From a virus, in IMG/VR virus record IMGVR_UViG_3300048921_000363, positions 1-64,000 of that record: a stretch of 64,000 nucleotides of DNA; one strand, given 5' to 3'. This document shows positions 38,710-49,197 of this stretch, piece after piece. The notes under the pieces are model-generated. The model was not told the DNA's origin. It saw nothing but the letters and a program-made list of their open reading frames with translations, and did no database searches. Every line of letters begins with the position of its first letter. Position 1 is the stretch's first letter. The position numbers and the translations under genes were made by a program.

Positions 38710-38929
38710 GGCGAGCCCCTCTCAATTCCACGAGAGAAAGGCACCCAACGCACTGCGTGCAGCCGGGTTGCGCCAAGCGACGAGCCTCAGAGATCGGGTC
38801 ATCACACGTTTCGCAAAACAGAAACGAATGCGCCGCCAAGGCAGGCTTGGCGGAGAGAAGGCGTGCAGCAAGCGCTTGATCGATACGCTCTTGCACCAGG
38901 TCATTAGCAAAGTCAGCAATGTCAGCCAC
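38699..38929 (-). CDS. TraR/DksA-type zinc-finger protein
   Basis: 76 residues from a GTG with GGGGTG upstream. CETCDDPISEARRLAQPGCTQCVGC is the C4 zinc finger of the TraR/DksA family (CxxC...CxxC). TraR proteins bind RNA polymerase in the secondary channel and mimic DksA with ppGpp. Here it overlaps both neighbours by 8-11 bp. Longer frames upstream fall inside the CII-like gene and are rejected. Confidence 0.8.
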   Translation of the reverse strand: MADIADFANDLVQERIDQALAARLLSAKPALAAHSFLFCETCDDPISEARRLAQPGCTQCVGCLSLVELRGARHAR

Positions 38930-39440
38930 GATCAACACCCCGCGTTGTCTGGTTGACATACGTGGCGCGGTTGAACATCCCCAGCAGCCCCTGAATCCCA
39001 CGAAACACCTGCAGACGAATCGCGGCGAGTTCCTCATCAGTAACGACACCGTCACCAATGCTCTTAGCCCAGGTATCCGCCAGATCTGCCACCTGCCGGA
39101 AGTAATCCGCAATGCCGGTGGTCAATGTCTCGGGCATGTCATTGGTGTACGCCTCAGCCAGCTCCTGCCAGGTCGTGTCACCGACCAACGCATGCACCGC
39201 ATCCAAAATGCGGCGATCCTTGGTCAACTCCAGAATCTCGCCGAACTCTTGAATGTTCACCGTATGGCTAGGGTGGGTTGGGGAAAGTTTGTGCTGCAGA
39301 GTGGTCGCATTCCGGCCGGTGGTGGCGGCGATGGCAGCTGCACCGCCGGGGTAGTCCCGGGCGGCATGGTAAAGCGCAAGATCGAGCGGCAAAACTTCCC
39401 GCTGCGCCCGGTCTAGAGAGCTCAGAATGATACGGCTCAT
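38922..39440 (-). CDS. Phage regulatory protein CII family
   Basis: 172 residues. ALYHAARDYPGGAAAIAATTGRNATTLQHKLSP is the HTH of the CII/CP76-type family, and HTVNIQEFGEILELTKDRRILDAVHAL follows. Such proteins steer lysogeny or repress replication genes; the target here is unknown. AAGGA lies 8 nt before the ATG. It is second in the leftward operon from cro. Confidence 0.85.
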   Translation of the reverse strand: MSRIILSSLDRAQREVLPLDLALYHAARDYPGGAAAIAATTGRNATTLQHKLSPTHPSHTVNIQEFGEILELTKDRRILDAVHALVGDTTWQELAEAYTNDMPETLTTGIADYFRQVADLADTWAKSIGDGVVTDEELAAIRLQVFRGIQGLLGMFNRATYVNQTTRGVDRG

Positions 39441-39771: not shown

Positions 39772-40032
39772 CTACGCTGCAGCTTTCTGAGGAGCTGATG
39801 AGTTCAACAGCCAAGCAGCTTGAAAAGCATTGCCTTTCCGCTCTGCGGCACTAGCCAAAAGCTCAGCGTATTTGGTTTCACCGGTGTAATCCGTTCGCGG
39901 CAGGCATCCAGCCTGACGCCATTTGTTCAGAGCTTGATAGCTTCGATTGCATATTTTGGCGGCGGCCCCAATGCCACCTACTGCTTCAAAGGCATACGCA
40001 ATCGCGCTCGGAAAATCTGCGGGGTCCAACAT
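39772..40032 (-). CDS. Cro-like / YdaS-type HTH repressor
   Basis: 86 residues from the ATG at 40032, which has GGAGG upstream. VGGIGAAAKICNRSYQALNKWRQAGCLPRTDYTGET is a helix-turn-helix of the Cro/YdaS class. It is divergent from the CI-like gene with three operators between them. It is the first gene of the leftward early operon and should turn down CI when lytic growth starts. Confidence 0.8.
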   Translation of the reverse strand: MLDPADFPSAIAYAFEAVGGIGAAAKICNRSYQALNKWRQAGCLPRTDYTGETKYAELLASAAERKGNAFQAAWLLNSSAPQKAAA

Positions 40033-40046
40033 GACAGCCTCCATTT

Positions 40047-40063
40047 ATCAACTTACGGTTGAT
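40047..40063. promoter_or_regulatory. Repressor operator OR, site 1
   Basis: ATCAAC-N5-GTTGAT, a perfect dyad just upstream of cro. It covers the start region of the presumed leftward promoter (TATAAC-like -10 at 40065-40070 on the minus strand). Confidence 0.75.
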
Positions 40064-40103: not shown

Positions 40104-40120
40104 CTCAACTCATGGTTGAT
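40104..40120. promoter_or_regulatory. Repressor operator OR, site 3, over CI start codon
   Basis: CTCAAC-N5-GTTGAT. It overlaps the CI-like gene's ATG at 40112, suggesting that the repressor limits its own expression. Confidence 0.65.
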
Positions 40121-40843
40121 AAAAATTCTCTCCGCGCAGCTTTCAGCGAGCGCCTACACGAAGCTCTCGACGATTCCGACGTACGCAGCCGGGGTCGTGG
40201 AGTGGACATCCATCGACAGTTGAAAAGCATGGGAGTTGAGAAAACCACTCAAGCAATCAGCAAATGGCTAAACGGTGAGGCAATCGCAGAGGCCGACAGC
40301 ATGTCCGCGCTTTGCTCTTGGTTGAAGGTTCGGCGCGAGTGGCTGGAGTACGGAGTACTACCAAAACACCAGTCTGAAGAGAGCAATGTCCACAGGATAA
40401 CCGCCGATGACAGAAGCAATGTAAGCGAGGTCAATCAGCGTTTTGGCAAGGTCCCGTTGATTTCGTGGGTCCAGGCAGGCGCGTGGTGTGAAGCGATTTC
40501 AAATTTTGAATCTTACGATGCGGATTCTTGGCTGTCTTGCCCTGTCCAGATAAGCAGTCATGGGTATGCGTTGAAAGTCCTTGGTGACTCAATGACGAAC
40601 CCCGGTTCGGGTCGTAGTTATCCAGCTGGATGCATAATCTTTGTTGATCCAGAGGCCGAAACTAGAACCGGGGACCGTGTGATTGCAAGTCTACCAAGAA
40701 CCAATGAAGCAACATTTAAGGTCCTAGTAGAAGATGCCGGCTTTCAATATCTAAAACCGATAAATCCGCAGTATCCGATAATTGAAATTACGGAAGAGAC
40801 ACATATCTGCGGGAAAGTTGTCGGTGCTTTCATTCCGGAGTAA
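40112..40843 (+). CDS. CI-like repressor with S24 peptidase domain
   Basis: 243 residues. The N-terminal HTH (RGVDIHRQLKSMGVEKTTQAISKWLNGEAIAEADSM) binds the operators. SWVQAGAW (about residue 123) is the Ala-Gly cleavage site. KVLGDSM carries the catalytic Ser, and ETRTGDRVIASLPRTNEATFK the Lys region. RecA-stimulated self-cleavage would induce the prophage after DNA damage. It converges with the KAP NTPase gene, with only 4 bp between stops. Confidence 0.93.
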   Translation: MVDKNSLRAAFSERLHEALDDSDVRSRGRGVDIHRQLKSMGVEKTTQAISKWLNGEAIAEADSMSALCSWLKVRREWLEYGVLPKHQSEESNVHRITADDRSNVSEVNQRFGKVPLISWVQAGAWCEAISNFESYDADSWLSCPVQISSHGYALKVLGDSMTNPGSGRSYPAGCIIFVDPEAETRTGDRVIASLPRTNEATFKVLVEDAGFQYLKPINPQYPIIEITEETHICGKVVGAFIPE

Positions 40844-40847
40844 CTAT

Positions 40848-42647
40848 CTAAAGCTTTACACCATACATATTCTCAACCCTAATAGAGTTGAGTTTATTCT
40901 CACCCCCAACTTTCTTTAAAGCATCCACTACTGCGTGACTAATCGCCGCATAGAGCTCCGCATCATCCGAATTTGTAGTCGATATATTTCGAAAAGAGAG
41001 CAACCCACTTCTAATCTTTGTAGTTATATTTTCGGGAGATGAGCGCATCCACTGTACATAGTCATCTACAGTCAAGGTTGCGAGATATGCCACATCCTCC
41101 GGACTCCAAGACCGTTCAGTTGCGATCCGCCATGAGATATCATCAATATTATAATTCTTACCCGACTTACCCGCCTCAATGACTTTTGACCGTAGCGATG
41201 CATTCTTAACGCGTTCCAAGGTCCAAGAAGACATGATGGCATCATCCTTGAAACTATCATAATGAATGGATATGTAATCATCTATATATGCGTTAACGGA
41301 TTCACCCATTTCCTCCAACATCTCAATAGCAGAGGAAAAGTCAGATAATGAAATGCTTTTCAGCTCTCTATCAAGGATACTTTTAAGCTCAGACTTAAAC
41401 TTCTCGGCGTCATCCCCAAAAGAATCATGGTAAATCTTCCACGCACTCTTTAGTTCAGCGTCAACATTACTCTTACGATAATGCTCTTCGACCTCTTTAA
41501 ATACCCGTAAGACCGAGAGTTCATCAACATACCCACACTCTAGATAATTTCCGATTAGAGAGTCAAACTTTGATTCAGACATTTGCAGATCAATGTTTAT
41601 GTTTTTGAATGCCAACTGACCTTCAGTCAAGCTTTCCGCACTTGCGGATAGGTACTTTGCCCATGACCCGCCTACTAAGCTGCTCCGAAGATCTGCATAT
41701 TTTATAAAACTACTGCCCAGATAATAGGATGAACACAATACCGCCGCATGCAAATAAAACTCGCAAACCAAGCCATCCTCTTTATCTTTGAGAAATGAAG
41801 CATGCGCATGCAATAAAGCTCTTAATTTACGGAGTACCCTTACGTTCTTTACACCTATCCTAAGCACCACCGACTTCAAATATTCAACTTGATTTAATTC
41901 GGTTGTAAAGACATGAGAAAAGTTTGTGTCGCAAGACGGGTTATATAACAACTCAGCGTCAACTACTTTTTCCCGGTACGACTCAAACTGTTCTAAGTCT
42001 TTGCTGTCTTTATCAAAAGATTTTTCATTAAAAATCAGTACAACCTTACATGACTTGCGTTGAGCCAATTCATCTGCCAGCCCCATCAACTCTTTGATGC
42101 TTAGCGAACTTCCCTTCCGCTCTATATCATCAAAACAAACGACGTAGTTATTTACCACACTGTATTCAACACTGGACAACAGGCTAGAAAACTTGTCAAG
42201 CACCGGAATTTTTTTTGCCGTACCACTGATCCAACCCAGCCAGGGCAGCTTATTTTTTGCAAACTGGAGAGTAGACTTAACTTTTGGAAACTTTGAATAA
42301 AGCGTATTAGATTTTTCCAGCTCTATTTCAAATGAACGGATAACCGCATCATCAGAAGCGATAGCTCTTCCACTTTGAAATACACTAGCCTTAATATCTG
42401 CGAGAGAATTCTTTCCAAACAGGGAAACATAGCTATATGCAATTTGCTTCAGATCTTTTTTCTGGATTCGGCTGTTTATATATTCTTCCCAGAAAAAAGT
42501 TTTTCCGACACCCCAATCTCCCCTTATTACTACAACTCCAGAGTTCGACTCGAAAAAGACATCAAAAGATTTTTTCAAATACTCCATATTCTCAAAGTCC
42601 TTTTTTCTGTGAATAGACCGCATCATATCAATGAGCCACACCTTCAT
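40848..42647 (-). CDS. KAP-type P-loop NTPase, probable prophage-borne defence gene
   Basis: 599 residues. Walker A is GDWGVGKTFFW near residue 42, and Walker B is VVCFDDIERKG near residue 170, followed by LADELAQRKSCKVVLIFNEK. This is the KAP family pattern. No membrane segments stand out; the C-terminal half is helical and has no recognised domain. The gene is clearly AT-rich against its neighbours. It lies between CI and the second operator cluster, where lambda keeps rexAB, pointing to a gene expressed in the lysogen that excludes other phages. The ATG has AAAGG 8 nt upstream. Confidence 0.75.
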   Translation of the reverse strand: MKVWLIDMMRSIHRKKDFENMEYLKKSFDVFFESNSGVVVIRGDWGVGKTFFWEEYINSRIQKKDLKQIAYSYVSLFGKNSLADIKASVFQSGRAIASDDAVIRSFEIELEKSNTLYSKFPKVKSTLQFAKNKLPWLGWISGTAKKIPVLDKFSSLLSSVEYSVVNNYVVCFDDIERKGSSLSIKELMGLADELAQRKSCKVVLIFNEKSFDKDSKDLEQFESYREKVVDAELLYNPSCDTNFSHVFTTELNQVEYLKSVVLRIGVKNVRVLRKLRALLHAHASFLKDKEDGLVCEFYLHAAVLCSSYYLGSSFIKYADLRSSLVGGSWAKYLSASAESLTEGQLAFKNINIDLQMSESKFDSLIGNYLECGYVDELSVLRVFKEVEEHYRKSNVDAELKSAWKIYHDSFGDDAEKFKSELKSILDRELKSISLSDFSSAIEMLEEMGESVNAYIDDYISIHYDSFKDDAIMSSWTLERVKNASLRSKVIEAGKSGKNYNIDDISWRIATERSWSPEDVAYLATLTVDDYVQWMRSSPENITTKIRSGLLSFRNISTTNSDDAELYAAISHAVVDALKKVGGENKLNSIRVENMYGVKL

Positions 42648-42676
42648 CGCAAGCCTTTCACGATGCAGTCGTAATA

Positions 42677-42693
42677 ATCAACCATGGGTTGTT
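42677..42693. promoter_or_regulatory. Repressor operator OL, site 1
   Basis: ATCAAC-N5-GTTGTT, one mismatch in the right half from the CI-region operators. It overlaps the TTGACA -35 box of the rightward early promoter. Confidence 0.7.
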
Positions 42694-42720
42694 GACAAAA
42701 AACAACCACTGGTTGATATT
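42692..42720 (+). promoter_or_regulatory. Rightward early promoter
   Basis: TTGACA (42692-42697) is a consensus -35 box. About 17 bp on, TGATAT/GATATT near 42714-42720 is a weak -10. Both boxes are overlapped by operators, so the CI-like repressor should silence the operon that begins at 42756. Confidence 0.6.
42701..42717. promoter_or_regulatory. Repressor operator OL, site 2
   Basis: AACAAC-N5-GTTGAT. It lies 24 bp centre-to-centre from site 1 and covers the -10 of the rightward promoter. Confidence 0.7.
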
Positions 42721-42755: not shown

Positions 42756-42932
42756 ATGCACACCACAGCAACCCTGCACGTCCACCCGGCCGCTGCTGAC
42801 CCCTTCCGAATCTTCGAGATCCGCCGCCTAGCCCGCGAGTGCGGCTGCGCGTTTGTCACCACCAAACTGAAGCAGCAAACGCGCACAGCCCCCGCCCCAT
42901 TCGACCCGAACGGCGGAGGGCATGCTGCATGA
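42756..42932 (+). CDS. Small early phage protein, unknown
   Basis: 58 residues, His/Ala-rich at the start, with FRIFEIRRLARECGCAFVTTKLKQQ in the middle. It is the first ORF of the rightward early operon and overlaps the next gene (ATG at 42929) by 4 bp, which supports translation. No family recognised. Confidence 0.5.
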   Translation: MHTTATLHVHPAAADPFRIFEIRRLARECGCAFVTTKLKQQTRTAPAPFDPNGGGHAA

Positions 42933-43519
42933 TCAAGTACAGAATCGACAACCGCACCCTGCAGTTGCTGAACGCCCAGGTCAACCTGACCGAGACCTTC
43001 AACCACGTCCTCCGGACAGCGCCCAAGCGTGAATGCCTGGCGTTCCGTCTCAAGGTCGAACGAGGCACAACAGAGAGCACCTTCGTCGTCGAGCTGGGCA
43101 GCGAACGCCACACGCTGACCCTGCAGAACGACAAGAAAACGCACCTCAAGCTGGCCGACTTTATCGAAGAGATTGCCAACGGCCCATTCGACGCGAGCAA
43201 CACCAGCGACCTGGTGCACCGCCCGCATGCCAGTCGCAAATACGGCCGCTTCGAAGTCTCCGACAAACAACGCGTATTCGAGCTGGTACGCACCGGCGGC
43301 GTGCTGAGCCTCGACATGGGCTTCGACTCCCCCCTGCAGGTCGCGCTGCACCGCACCCAATCACGCTCGGGTGTCACTACCATCCTGAGCATCGGCAACA
43401 CAAACCCGCACACCCGGTGCTTCACCGTATACGGCACCGATGTCGAGATCTACGGCAAGGTCACCGAGTCCATCAACCACCTCGCTGCAGCGGCCACCCC
43501 AGCCGCGCACGCGGCATGA
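42929..43519 (+). CDS. Unknown early phage protein
   Basis: 196 residues from the ATG at 42929; the longer frame overlaps the previous ORF and is rejected. IDNRTLQLLNAQVNLTETFNHVLRTAPKREC and a beta-rich centre (STFVVELGSERHTLTLQND). No domain that I can name. Its early place suggests a host-takeover, exclusion or regulatory role. Confidence 0.6.
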   Translation: MIKYRIDNRTLQLLNAQVNLTETFNHVLRTAPKRECLAFRLKVERGTTESTFVVELGSERHTLTLQNDKKTHLKLADFIEEIANGPFDASNTSDLVHRPHASRKYGRFEVSDKQRVFELVRTGGVLSLDMGFDSPLQVALHRTQSRSGVTTILSIGNTNPHTRCFTVYGTDVEIYGKVTESINHLAAAATPAAHAA

Positions 43520-44826: not shown

Positions 44827-45431
44827 GCCAGACCTGCCCCCAATCCAAAACCCACCGCAACCCGGCCTACACCCAAGTAGCGGCAGATGAACCAACGCGC
44901 AATCGAACTTCGGAGGAAAGCGGCATGCAAAAGGACCAGAACGACAACCAACCCACGACCGCTTTGCTCCGCAAGGAAACCAGCGTCGACGCATTAGAAA
45001 CAAGCAGCCTCTGCTGCGCAGCAGCAGGCATTATTGCATCTTCCAGCAGCACCGCTGAGGCACTTATACCCCACGAAAAGCTGCGCGAGGCAGCCACACC
45101 CAATGCAACGCTAACCGCTCAAAATCGCCCGCCCGCGCAGCTTGCTGTGGGGTATCCGCCCCCTGACAGCAACTCTGATAGTCCATCACAAGAAGCCGTC
45201 GACGAAGTGCAGATCGACGAGCGCGTCGAGTTCGAGAAAGAGTTCCCGATCCCTGAGGGCCTGAAGCACTGCGCCCAGCGAGGCACCTACATCACCGCAC
45301 CAGGTACGGAGACATCCGACTCTTTCGCCCGTGAGCATTACGCGTACCGGGCCGGCTTCGTAGCATGGAAGCGCAGAGCCTGGAAGCACGCCGCACTCGT
45401 TGGCCAACAAGCCGAAGGAGTCCGCACGTGA
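44823..45431 (+). CDS. Hypothetical early phage protein
   Basis: 202 residues. The first 120 look disordered (Ser/Thr/Pro-rich). The C-terminal 70 (EFEKEFPIPEGLKHCAQRGTYI ... AYRAGFVAWKRRAWKHA) are ordered and recur in Pseudomonas phages by recollection. Its end overlaps the methyltransferase start. Confidence 0.55.
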   Translation: MSQTCPQSKTHRNPAYTQVAADEPTRNRTSEESGMQKDQNDNQPTTALLRKETSVDALETSSLCCAAAGIIASSSSTAEALIPHEKLREAATPNATLTAQNRPPAQLAVGYPPPDSNSDSPSQEAVDEVQIDERVEFEKEFPIPEGLKHCAQRGTYITAPGTETSDSFAREHYAYRAGFVAWKRRAWKHAALVGQQAEGVRT

Positions 45432-47419
45432 TCAAGCGCACTTTCAAACACTTCCACATGTGCTGCGGGCTGGGCAGTGGTGCCGCAGGTTTTAGTGACT
45501 CCAAGCCTGCATTGGGTTCAGTACAAGCCGAATGGCGATGCTTGGGCGGTGTTGACGTCGACTCTGCTGGACTACGCGACTTTCAAATGATGACTGGCGT
45601 GCCAGGGACGTTGATGGATCTGTTTACCCGCGAGCAGTTCACTGCATTCCACGGTCAGGAACCGCCGTCTCACTGGAAAGAGGCCACCGCTGAAGATCTG
45701 CGCCGCGCTGCCGGCAACGAAGATCCGGACGCCGTGTTCATAAGCAGTCCGTGCAAAGGCGCCTCGGGGTTGTTGTCCGAGACGATGAGTCAGACGCCAA
45801 AGTACCAAGCCCTGAACGAACTGACGCTCCGCTGCGTGTGGCTGATGTGTGAGGCATGGAAGCATAACCCCGTCTCGCTGATCATCTTCGAGAACGTGCC
45901 ACGCTTGGCCACTCGCGGCCGACACCTTCTAGATCAGATCAACAAGCTGCTCAGTTTCTATGGATACGCGGTCGCTGAAACCACCCACGACTGCGGTGAG
46001 ATCGGTGGCCTGGCACAGAGCCGCAAGCGGTTCTTGCTGGTCGCAAGGCACGTCGAGAAAGTCCCAGCGTTCCTTTATCAGCCTGAAAAACGCAGCCTGC
46101 GAGCCGTCGGCGATGTGCTCAGCCGCATGCCGCTGGCGGGAGACATCGAACAGGCCGGACCGATGCATCGTGTGCCGGCACTGCAATGGAAGACATGGGT
46201 TCGACTGGCACTGGTAGAGGCCGGCAAAGATTGGCGCAGCCTTAGCCGATTCGCGATAGAGGATGGCCATCTACGCGACTTCGTGATCGTGCCCGAATAT
46301 CGCGCCGGCTATCTGGGAATAAACACCTGGACCGAAAACGCCGGCACCGTAGCCGGCAGATCCACACCTACCAATGGCAAGTTCTCAGTCGCCGACCCAA
46401 GGCCTACCAGCAAATTCGAATACACCCAATACGGCGTGCTGCCCTTCGATCGCCACTGCGGCGTCGTAACAGGGCAGCGAAGCCCAGGGCAAGGCACATT
46501 CAGCGTGGCCGACCCACGCATGACCGGTGGAAGTCACACCAATGTATTCCGCGTGATTAACAACGATCAAGCCGCTGGCACCGTAACCACCAGTCACGGT
46601 CCGAGCTCCGGTGGACAGGCAGTGGCAGACCCTCGACAGCCAACCAAGGGCTTCGGCAAATACCTAGTAACTGACTACACCAAACCAGCAGGCACCGTCA
46701 TCGCCGGGAGCACCACCGGGCAAGGCGCTTTTGCCGTAGCAGATCCTGCTTACAAGAACTGGCATAAAGGCGCCAGCACCCAAAAGTTACGCGTCACGCC
46801 ATGGGGCAAATCAGCCAGGACAGTGACCGGCTCGCAGCAGGTCGCCAGCGGTGCCCTCTCTATCGCGGACCCACGCCCAGGCATGTCTCGCAGCAAAGGC
46901 GACGCATACCTCACCGGTGGGCATTACGGCGTGGTCGATTGGAAAGATCCAGCCGGCGCCGTATCCGCCAGTGCATGCCATGACAATGGCAGATGGTCCG
47001 TTGCAGACCATCGAATGCCAGCCGCCAATGACCGACTCACCTGCATGATCGCCAGCCTCGACGGTACCTGGCATCGGCCTTTTACAACGCTGGAACTGGC
47101 CGCGCTGCAGTCGTTGTTTGATCCAGAGGAACATTGGTCTACTGATGCGCAGACAGTTCGTGACATTCAGATGATGCAGCACGCCCGCAAGATCGAGAAC
47201 GCGAGGTTCTTTCAACTGGACGGTATCAACGATGGCAGCCATCGCGAACGCATCGGCAACGCAGTGCCGCGTGCGGCAGCAAAAGCCATGGCCGACGTGT
47301 TCGGTATGACACTGCTACTGTCAGACGCTGGCGAGACGTTCATGCTCAGCAACGTATCAATCTGGGTTCAGCCGGTAGCCGTTGCCCTAAGCGCTTCCAT
47401 TCGGGAGGTTCAGGCATGA
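45428..47419 (+). CDS. C5-cytosine DNA methyltransferase with central VADPR repeats
   Basis: 663 residues from a GTG at 45428. The AdoMet motif I is HMCCGLGSGAAGF. Motif IV reads ISSPCKGAS instead of the usual PPCQxxS but keeps the catalytic Cys. Motif VI is FENVPRL, VIII is QSRKRFLLVA and X is IGNAVPRAAA. Between VIII and X lie about six degenerate 40-50-residue units, each ending in VADPR or a variant, a region that holds target recognition. No restriction partner is present. It probably modifies phage DNA to avoid host restriction. Confidence 0.9.
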   Translation: MIKRTFKHFHMCCGLGSGAAGFSDSKPALGSVQAEWRCLGGVDVDSAGLRDFQMMTGVPGTLMDLFTREQFTAFHGQEPPSHWKEATAEDLRRAAGNEDPDAVFISSPCKGASGLLSETMSQTPKYQALNELTLRCVWLMCEAWKHNPVSLIIFENVPRLATRGRHLLDQINKLLSFYGYAVAETTHDCGEIGGLAQSRKRFLLVARHVEKVPAFLYQPEKRSLRAVGDVLSRMPLAGDIEQAGPMHRVPALQWKTWVRLALVEAGKDWRSLSRFAIEDGHLRDFVIVPEYRAGYLGINTWTENAGTVAGRSTPTNGKFSVADPRPTSKFEYTQYGVLPFDRHCGVVTGQRSPGQGTFSVADPRMTGGSHTNVFRVINNDQAAGTVTTSHGPSSGGQAVADPRQPTKGFGKYLVTDYTKPAGTVIAGSTTGQGAFAVADPAYKNWHKGASTQKLRVTPWGKSARTVTGSQQVASGALSIADPRPGMSRSKGDAYLTGGHYGVVDWKDPAGAVSASACHDNGRWSVADHRMPAANDRLTCMIASLDGTWHRPFTTLELAALQSLFDPEEHWSTDAQTVRDIQMMQHARKIENARFFQLDGINDGSHRERIGNAVPRAAAKAMADVFGMTLLLSDAGETFMLSNVSIWVQPVAVALSASIREVQA

Positions 47420-47685: not shown

Positions 47686-47711
47686 AAAAAGGGGCTGACG
47701 CCCCTTTTTTT
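47685..47711. terminator. Bidirectional terminator
   Basis: An A run, GGGGC-TGAC-GCCCC hairpin, and T run. It can end both the rightward operon and the leftward DUF3892 gene. Confidence 0.85.
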
Positions 47712-48015
47712 AAAGTTTGAATTCTTTCAACTCGCCCAAATTGTCTTTGACCTGACCATTACGGTCGGTCGAAAGAAAACTCTCTCCGACCACATGAATA
47801 CGCTCCCCACCGTTCCACACTTTCGTATCTGTATTCCACACAGCAGTTCGAAAATTCGCGGTTTCCGTCGTAATCAAATTCGCAACGAACTCTCTGCTGC
47901 TGACCATAGCGGCCCCGACTGTCAACTCAGCGCGATTCCGATGGCGCACATGCACATGGGTAATGTGGGATTTTTTTTCATCGTATCGAACTGCGGTTAC
48001 ATAATAATCCGTCAT
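47710..48015 (-). CDS. DUF3892 family protein
   Basis: 101 residues. DYYVTAVRYDEKKSHITHVHVRH is the DUF3892 start, a small fold of unknown role. The ATG at 48015 is favoured by AGGGA spacing. It sits alone between the early operon and the integrase. Confidence 0.75.
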   Translation of the reverse strand: MTDYYVTAVRYDEKKSHITHVHVRHRNRAELTVGAAMVSSREFVANLITTETANFRTAVWNTDTKVWNGGERIHVVGESFLSTDRNGQVKDNLGELKEFKL

Positions 48016-48078
48016 TTCCATTCCCTAAATTTAAGAACAACACGGCGATTTGATAGTAGTGGCGATGTAAAATCAACC

Positions 48079-49197
48079 CTAAGTGCCATCACCTATCAAT
48101 TCCCTAAATTCATTTAACCTCAGCATCCACAACCAGCCACTATACCGATCTCCTCGCCCGCGGAGATGCGTATACCTCCGCAGCGAGTTCCAGTCCCGGT
48201 GTCCTGAGACACTAGACACTCTAGGAATGTCCCAGTCCATTTCGAAAAGCCGGCTAACCCCCTCGTGTCTAAGGTCATGGAAGTGTAAATCCTCAATACC
48301 AAGCATCGGGCACGCCCGCGTGAAAGCAGCCGAAACCGACCTAGCGTTGTAAGGGAAGATCTCCCGCTCGACCTTGGGCATGCTCTGCAGAATGGCCCAA
48401 GCCTCATCAGGCAGATAACACCACACATCATTACCAATCTTTTGCCCGGGGTTCTTCATATCGCGCACCAGGACCGACTGCCGAGACTCATCGAGATCAT
48501 CCCAACGGATACGCGTAATTTCCTCCTGTCGGCGCGTCGAAAAAAGCGCAAAGGCGATCACCTTCGGCATGTCGATCTGAGCTTTACGACGTTCCTGCAT
48601 TTCGAAGAAATGCGCCATGAGCTTGTCCAGCTCATCAAGCGTCGGCCGGCGATTACGCTCTCTGCTCTTGCTCACCATACCTAGCTTGCGCAACACCTTC
48701 CTGGCATCAGACATGGCCAGCGGATCCACCTCATAGCCCCAAGCTGGACGCGCCACAGACAACACCGCCCCCAAGTGTGAGAGATCATTTCCGACCGTTT
48801 GCGCCTGAACGCCGCCGCCCTCTTTACTCATCCGCCATTGTGCGAACTCCACCAGCTTCTGGCTGGTCAGAGCCGAGTCCTCAAGGTCGCCCAGCCAAGT
48901 ATGCTTGATCGCTTTCAAGGTGGCGTTCTTGGTCTTGCCCAGCGGCCGGATTTTCTCGTACTCGTCCAGGTACTGCTCGATCATCTTCCTGATCGTCACA
49001 CCCTTACGGTTTGCGCGCTCAATCGCACCAGGCTCAGCCAGCTCCGTCTCACGCCGTTTGATCCAAGCCTGGGCGACCTGCTTTCGGTCGAAGGTTTGGC
49101 TTTCCTGATAAACTGAGCGCCCGTCCCGATTGATCCGTATCTGCGCTGTGTAGGCCGTAGAGTTGTCCTTGCGCTTGCGTGATGTGATCGTGCCCAT
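48079..49197 (-). CDS. int: Tyrosine integrase, dusA-targeting type
   Basis: 372 residues. Arg in STRRQEEITRIRW, the HDLRHEGVSRLFE box and GHRDWNSLRRYTHL with the nucleophilic Tyr form the catalytic set. The N-terminal part holds an arm-binding domain. The gene is beside the dusA fragment and divergent from it, as in dusA-associated islands. The decayed copy at 4887-5262 is its homologue. It would catalyse integration and excision of element B at the PMMDW codons of dusA. Confidence 0.95.
   Translation of the reverse strand: MGTITSRKRKDNSTAYTAQIRINRDGRSVYQESQTFDRKQVAQAWIKRRETELAEPGAIERANRKGVTIRKMIEQYLDEYEKIRPLGKTKNATLKAIKHTWLGDLEDSALTSQKLVEFAQWRMSKEGGGVQAQTVGNDLSHLGAVLSVARPAWGYEVDPLAMSDARKVLRKLGMVSKSRERNRRPTLDELDKLMAHFFEMQERRKAQIDMPKVIAFALFSTRRQEEITRIRWDDLDESRQSVLVRDMKNPGQKIGNDVWCYLPDEAWAILQSMPKVEREIFPYNARSVSAAFTRACPMLGIEDLHFHDLRHEGVSRLFEMDWDIPRVSSVSGHRDWNSLRRYTHLRGRGDRYSGWLWMLRLNEFRELIGDGT

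Follow-up and report, generated by a model that had tools for sequence, protein, structure and literature searches.

A KAP-type NTPase gene as probable anti-phage cargo of an accessory slot in the immunity region of Pseudomonas prophages

The window analysed here, a 64-kb stretch of viral DNA (positions 1–64,000 of the IMG/VR record IMGVR_UViG_3300048921_000363), contains a gene for a predicted NTPase in the midst of an immunity region. Does such a gene serve the cycle of the phage itself, or does it protect the lysogen against other phages? The CI-type repressor gene (40112–40843, + strand) encoded an S24 peptidase domain (Pfam Peptidase_S24, 3e-24). On its other side were genes for a Cro-like regulator (39772–40044, −; profile searches) and a CII-like regulator (Phage_CP76; 38922–39440, −; Pfam and PHROG). 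A scan for the 17-bp operator ATCAACYnnnGGTTGAT returned exactly four sites in the window, against 0.5 expected by chance. Two of them were right operators, ATCAACTTACGGTTGAT (40047–40063) and CTCAACTCATGGTTGAT (40104–40120), the latter overlapping the CI start codon, and two were left operators, ATCAACCATGGGTTGTT (42677–42693) and AACAACCACTGGTTGAT (42701–42717). The sequence-only reading had described two operator clusters with the NTPase gene between the repressor and the second of them, and both points were confirmed. A predicted left lytic promoter (TTGACA-17-GATATT; 42692–42720, +), a consensus match only (10/12), overlapped both left operators. The first gene to the right, D1 (42932–43519, +; PHROG 15582, unknown function), was used as a marker. 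We refer to the interval from the CI stop codon to the left operators (40844–42676) as the accessory slot; in relatives whose slot was empty, hardly any of this interval was present. The left operon also contained a long C5 cytosine DNA methyltransferase-like gene (45365–47419, +; 684 aa), with a repetitive-looking central third of the translation.

The gene in the slot encodes a KAP-type NTPase, as had been claimed. Its product matched Pfam KAP_NTPase (PF07693; E = 5.4e-8, 32.9 bits against a curated cut-off of 20), PHROG 4740 over nearly its full length (E = 7e-62) and the PADLOC profile PDC-S49 (E = 1.7e-20), for which the tool gives no family cut-offs. The PADLOC profile of PifA did not match at E values up to 1, and the protein was not assigned to PifA. 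The open reading frame as called and as first claimed (40848–42647, −; 599 codons) is probably too long. The homologues from loci L002 (62% identical), L061 (39%) and L164 (65%) start with M-E-x-L at the position corresponding to residue 21, and a predicted promoter lies within the first 20 codons (60 bases) of the called frame. The true start is therefore most likely 42587 instead of 42647, giving a protein of 579 aa (40848–42587, −). The KAP and CI genes were arranged tail to tail, their stop codons separated by 4 bp, and no terminator-like site was predicted between them.

Loci gathered from IMG/VR by similarity to CI or D1 numbered 83 after removal of duplicates, the window included. Both flanks were present in 77, of which 76 were classifiable and one was unclear. 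The slot was empty (about 280–294 bp) in 12 loci and occupied (1.0–3.9 kb, median 1.7 kb) in 64. All 77 loci had the right operator pair and 76 had one or more left operators; the same scan, run on 90 kb of cargo, gave eight matches. The cargo proteins of the occupied slots fell into 42 families, a count that depends on automatic ORF choice, and a tree built from the 1.14-kb CI region required at least 53 changes of cargo. None of the Septu (seven), AbiC-like (six) and NACHT (five) occurrences grouped with another of its kind on this tree. KAP, a minor cargo, was gained about three times, in three separate places. In 62 of the 64 occupied slots the cargo was on the minus strand, convergent with CI, with a median stop-to-stop distance of 15 bp. 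The only plus-strand cargos (L083 and L150) were long proteins behind a small ORF, one with a PIN-TPR-GreABC match. Mean GC content was 0.41 for slot cargo, 0.50 for CI and 0.58 for D1, in the phage DNA to the right; the AT-richness noted for the NTPase gene was confirmed. The sequence-only reading had proposed looking for gene swapping in relatives, and had named conservation of the same core gene in all of them as contrary evidence. Swapping was what the comparison revealed, and the slot was variable.

At least 40 of the 64 occupied slots had a PADLOC match. In a control with ten proteins encoded by neighbouring phage genes of the window, nine had no match and CI had a weak one near its N-terminal part. 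PADLOC and Pfam scans identified Septu PtuA/PtuB in seven loci and a CBASS cyclase with Cap15 in two. The cargo also comprised complete Lamassu LmuA/B/C, NACHT proteins with a SNaCT13 domain (five loci), AbiC-like proteins (six loci), DRT5, PD-T4-10 with PDC-S21, PDC-S28 helicases, SIR2 and others. A second KAP family (PDC-S20, with PifA and QatA profile matches) was found in the same slot in L079, L080 and L294; the PDC-S20 and PDC-S49 KAP families aligned only around the Walker A motif. With the same flanks, different cargo, empty versions and known defence systems among the cargo, the locus has the comparative features of a prophage defence hotspot. The comparison strongly supports the proposal that an exclusion or defence gene occupies this part of the immunity region, given the number of interchangeable families and the share of occupied slots with PADLOC matches. 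We conclude, with a probability of about 0.78, that the KAP gene is superinfection-exclusion (anti-phage) cargo, housed in the dedicated accessory slot of this family of Pseudomonas prophages.

The gene could instead have a lytic or regulatory function, being repressed by CI via the left operators and used early in the lytic cycle or, through convergent transcription, for tuning the CI switch. Its start is near the left operators, it runs towards cI with hardly any spacing, and in Staphylococcus aureus phage 80alpha defence is under the control of an antisense arrangement around cI (PMC11087260). However, twelve relatives had no slot gene at all and others had unrelated genes, so the KAP gene appears dispensable for the phage cycle. 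Moreover, with the revised start the predicted KAP promoter lies outside both operators. The promoter element GTGTGGCTCATTGATATGAT (42622–42641, −), ending in an extended −10 (TGATATGAT), would give a transcription start near 42615, and the left operators are centred near −70 and −93 relative to it; no steric block by CI is therefore expected. A promoter across the left operators (TTGTCA...TATTAC), implying CI repression, was also considered and was dropped in view of the homologue start at 42587 and the motif at 42622–42641. We consider a lytic or regulatory role unlikely. Interference between cargo and cI transcription is possible as a side effect, and convergent cI transcription might silence the predicted KAP promoter.

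Alternatively, the slot may take up morons of any kind, with defence genes merely common among them, and the KAP protein may serve the host otherwise, for instance in the stress response or in the control of plasmids or competitors. Several cargo families had no defence match (HIT-domain proteins, peptidase C92, DUF4062, unknowns), and since about a third of the occupied slots had no PADLOC match, the slot could also hold non-defence morons. KAP proteins are also known in eukaryotic signalling. We nevertheless regard this explanation as improbable for the KAP gene: most occupied slots matched defence models, in contrast to essentially none of the ten neighbouring phage genes, and members of the KAP family turn up again in the P2 hotspot and on phage-plasmids.

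In a P2-like prophage of Rahnella (L167), the KAP gene was flanked by the portal gene and a gpA-like replication gene (identities by eye from translations); this is the P2 gpA–gpQ position, which has been described as a defence hotspot (PMC9122126). In another P2-like phage (L211) it adjoined an HTH regulator. The KAP relatives of L164, L167 and L211 also matched the PDC-S49 and PHROG 4740 profiles. Nearly full-length KAP genes, approximately 30% identical, were present on phage-plasmids of Klebsiella, Escherichia and Salmonella, mostly 105–115 kb in size and recognized by phage tail genes on IncFIB replicons. In the phage-plasmids L227 (Salmonella) and L228 (Klebsiella), the KAP gene was at the same place, between genes for a small AAA ATPase and a DnaB-like helicase, and is perhaps a core gene there. 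The KAP gene of Campylobacter prophage CJIE4 was similar to ours over a third of the protein; its product was seen by proteomics, and the gene was proposed to confer superinfection immunity (PMC3995785).

The KAP protein contained the two motifs expected of PF07693 members, a Walker A motif (GDWGVGKT, residues 23–30; 42498–42521, −) and a Walker B region with an acidic pair (CFDDIER, residues 151–157; 42117–42137, −). Among 24 homologues, G23, W25–T30, D153, D154 and R157 were invariant, as were a sensor-type Asn and several Arg/Lys positions, and C151 and E156 were conserved in at least 90%. KAP genes often become pseudogenes (PMC3995785, citing earlier work), but an inert or decaying passenger is very hard to reconcile with a reading frame and catalytic motifs that are all intact here and in relatives down to approximately 25% identity. 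In the AlphaFold model (mean pLDDT 85, low confidence at residues 109–131), the first ~265 residues formed an ASCE/AAA+ module and the remainder was all helical. Its Foldseek neighbours were ORC/Cdc6, TnsC, RdrA of RADAR, Apaf-1 and CED-4, which shared the ATPase fold only (TM 0.2–0.3). A sequence search for related solved structures gave nothing useful. Many KAP P-loop NTPases have transmembrane segments inserted in the NTPase domain, and QatA-type members have been described without them. In the present protein no transmembrane segment was predicted (best 19-residue mean hydropathy 1.18).

If the KAP gene is anti-phage cargo, as we favour, the following mechanism can be envisaged. Neither of the outward-pointing lytic promoters should transcribe the slot. 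Cargo enters convergent to cI and is very often exchanged between phages, and it brings or acquires a predicted promoter of its own adjoining, not overlapping, the CI operators. The KAP protein would be expressed in the lysogen as a soluble STAND/AAA+-like ATPase with a predicted N-terminal ATP-binding module and an all-helical C-terminal half. It would most likely sense an invading phage through one of its products or effects, oligomerise on ATP and then abort the infection. By analogy with such ATPases, the C-terminal half is likely the sensor and ATP-driven oligomerisation the switch.

Single-gene defence by KAP proteins is already known. PifA of plasmid F, which excludes T7, is a KAP family ATPase; it has the family in common with the protein described here, but its profile matched the PDC-S20 cargo of the slot and not this KAP. 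Tmn is likewise a KAP-family anti-phage system (PMC11846954), although it has two transmembrane domains and the present protein has none predicted. With Tmn, the PifA model in PADLOC and the CJIE4 proposal as precedents, a single-gene KAP exclusion system is not the novelty it had been taken for. PDC-S49 is a candidate single-gene defence family only; we found no tested member of PDC-S49 or PHROG 4740, and no mention of PDC-S49 by name in the literature searched, mostly without subscription papers.

Lambda RexAB and BTP1 BstA are prophage-encoded exclusion systems with genes beside cI (PMC8585504), and the KAP gene had been described as occupying the lambda rex position. This is correct insofar as the slot, too, separates the repressor gene from the next operon and lies between cI and the left operator/promoter region. 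It does not extend to the operon: the rex and bstA genes follow cI in its own orientation, whereas the slot cargo is on the opposite strand, convergent and not co-transcribed with cI, and has its own predicted promoter. Temperate phages have defence hotspots at the gpA–gpQ site of P2-like and the cI–int site of K139-like phages (PMC9122126), which are likewise single swappable sites for many defence systems, including Septu. The slot differs from these in the phage family, in its position (cI to left operators), in the nearly fixed convergent orientation and in the common promoter motif. In Gifsy prophages, gipd474 and remAIN are anti-phage genes swapped in the immunity region, one of them a single ATPase (PMC12724215); GiPD474 is a ParA/MinD-like ATPase, unlike KAP. 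No description of this slot in Pseudomonas phages was found in the literature searched, which left out most subscription papers, and both the slot and the 20-bp promoter palindrome common to its unrelated cargo look unreported. We place the slot among the prophage defence hotspots as a new example, with a nearly fixed convergent orientation and a promoter element undescribed in the literature found.

As an independent check, D1 was found in 47 of 399 Pseudomonas genomes (about 12%). Among the 37 D1 stretches fetched, 23 had a CI relative and the slot, which by size was occupied in 22 and empty in one (L298). Most of the readable cargo belonged to the same families as in the IMG/VR set. Six of the 23 slots (L271, L288, L293, L297, L299 and L300) were beside a CI only 32–35% identical and without ATCAACY operators; in three of these divergent-CI prophages (L297, L299 and L300), the cargo was on the plus strand. 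A first scan of the genome collection with the single KAP protein found no relatives. KAP was present in 12 of the 399 genomes, and the sole one that also had D1 carried both far apart. Since no member of this KAP family was found inside the slot in the 399-genome sample, KAP is a rare slot cargo.

The KAP gene alone adds one more member to a candidate defence family, and the slot matters more. It offers a precise, bounded address, in a prophage family whose marker gene occurred in about 12% of the Pseudomonas genomes sampled. More than a dozen uncharacterised families share it with Septu, CBASS, Lamassu and DRT, so that small, self-contained candidates for anti-phage function can readily be drawn from it, with empty slots as natural controls.

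The upstream regions of unrelated cargo had in common a 20-bp, partly palindromic motif, about TGrTGGCaatTTGcTATcaT. A palindromic model reached a log-likelihood of 160, compared to 40–48 in dinucleotide shuffles. The motif scored at least 13 bits in 69% of occupied slots and in 1.1% of control stretches. In split-half tests, 15/29 and 8/30 held-out sequences were above the 99% control level. In the separate genome set, 10 of 18 slots (minus-strand or unread cargo) reached 13 bits; these included close relatives of training sequences. A match as good as that at 42622–42641 is not rare on its own in 64 kb, and its weight comes from its position and from the relatives. The motif-bearing regions belonged to slot cargo of the loci L002–L163 and L271–L307. 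Three other interpretations of the motif were rejected. A sigma-54 (−24/−12) promoter has a GG–GC spacing that was wrong in most sites (hand check). A property of KAP genes would not explain its absence upstream of 16 of the 17 relatives outside the slot, including a gene 65% identical. A CI operator does not fit its presence in L288 and L293, phages whose CI differs and which lack ATCAACY operators.

We tentatively propose, as a possibility that we rate below even odds, that the slot is a regulated cassette site in which unrelated defence genes converge on a palindromic promoter element bound by one phage- or host-encoded regulator. If so, the defence genes of the prophage family would form an exchangeable arsenal with a single shared control, independent of immunity type. 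The common palindrome also gives experimental access to a standing question, namely how swappable defence genes stay switched on in a lysogen while induction of the prophage itself is left unharmed. A weaker match to the motif, which may be due to chance, was present at 48072–48091 (−), approximately 50 bp upstream of a small ORF (47710–48021, −) that neighbours the integrase gene; this ORF is possibly a second accessory gene.
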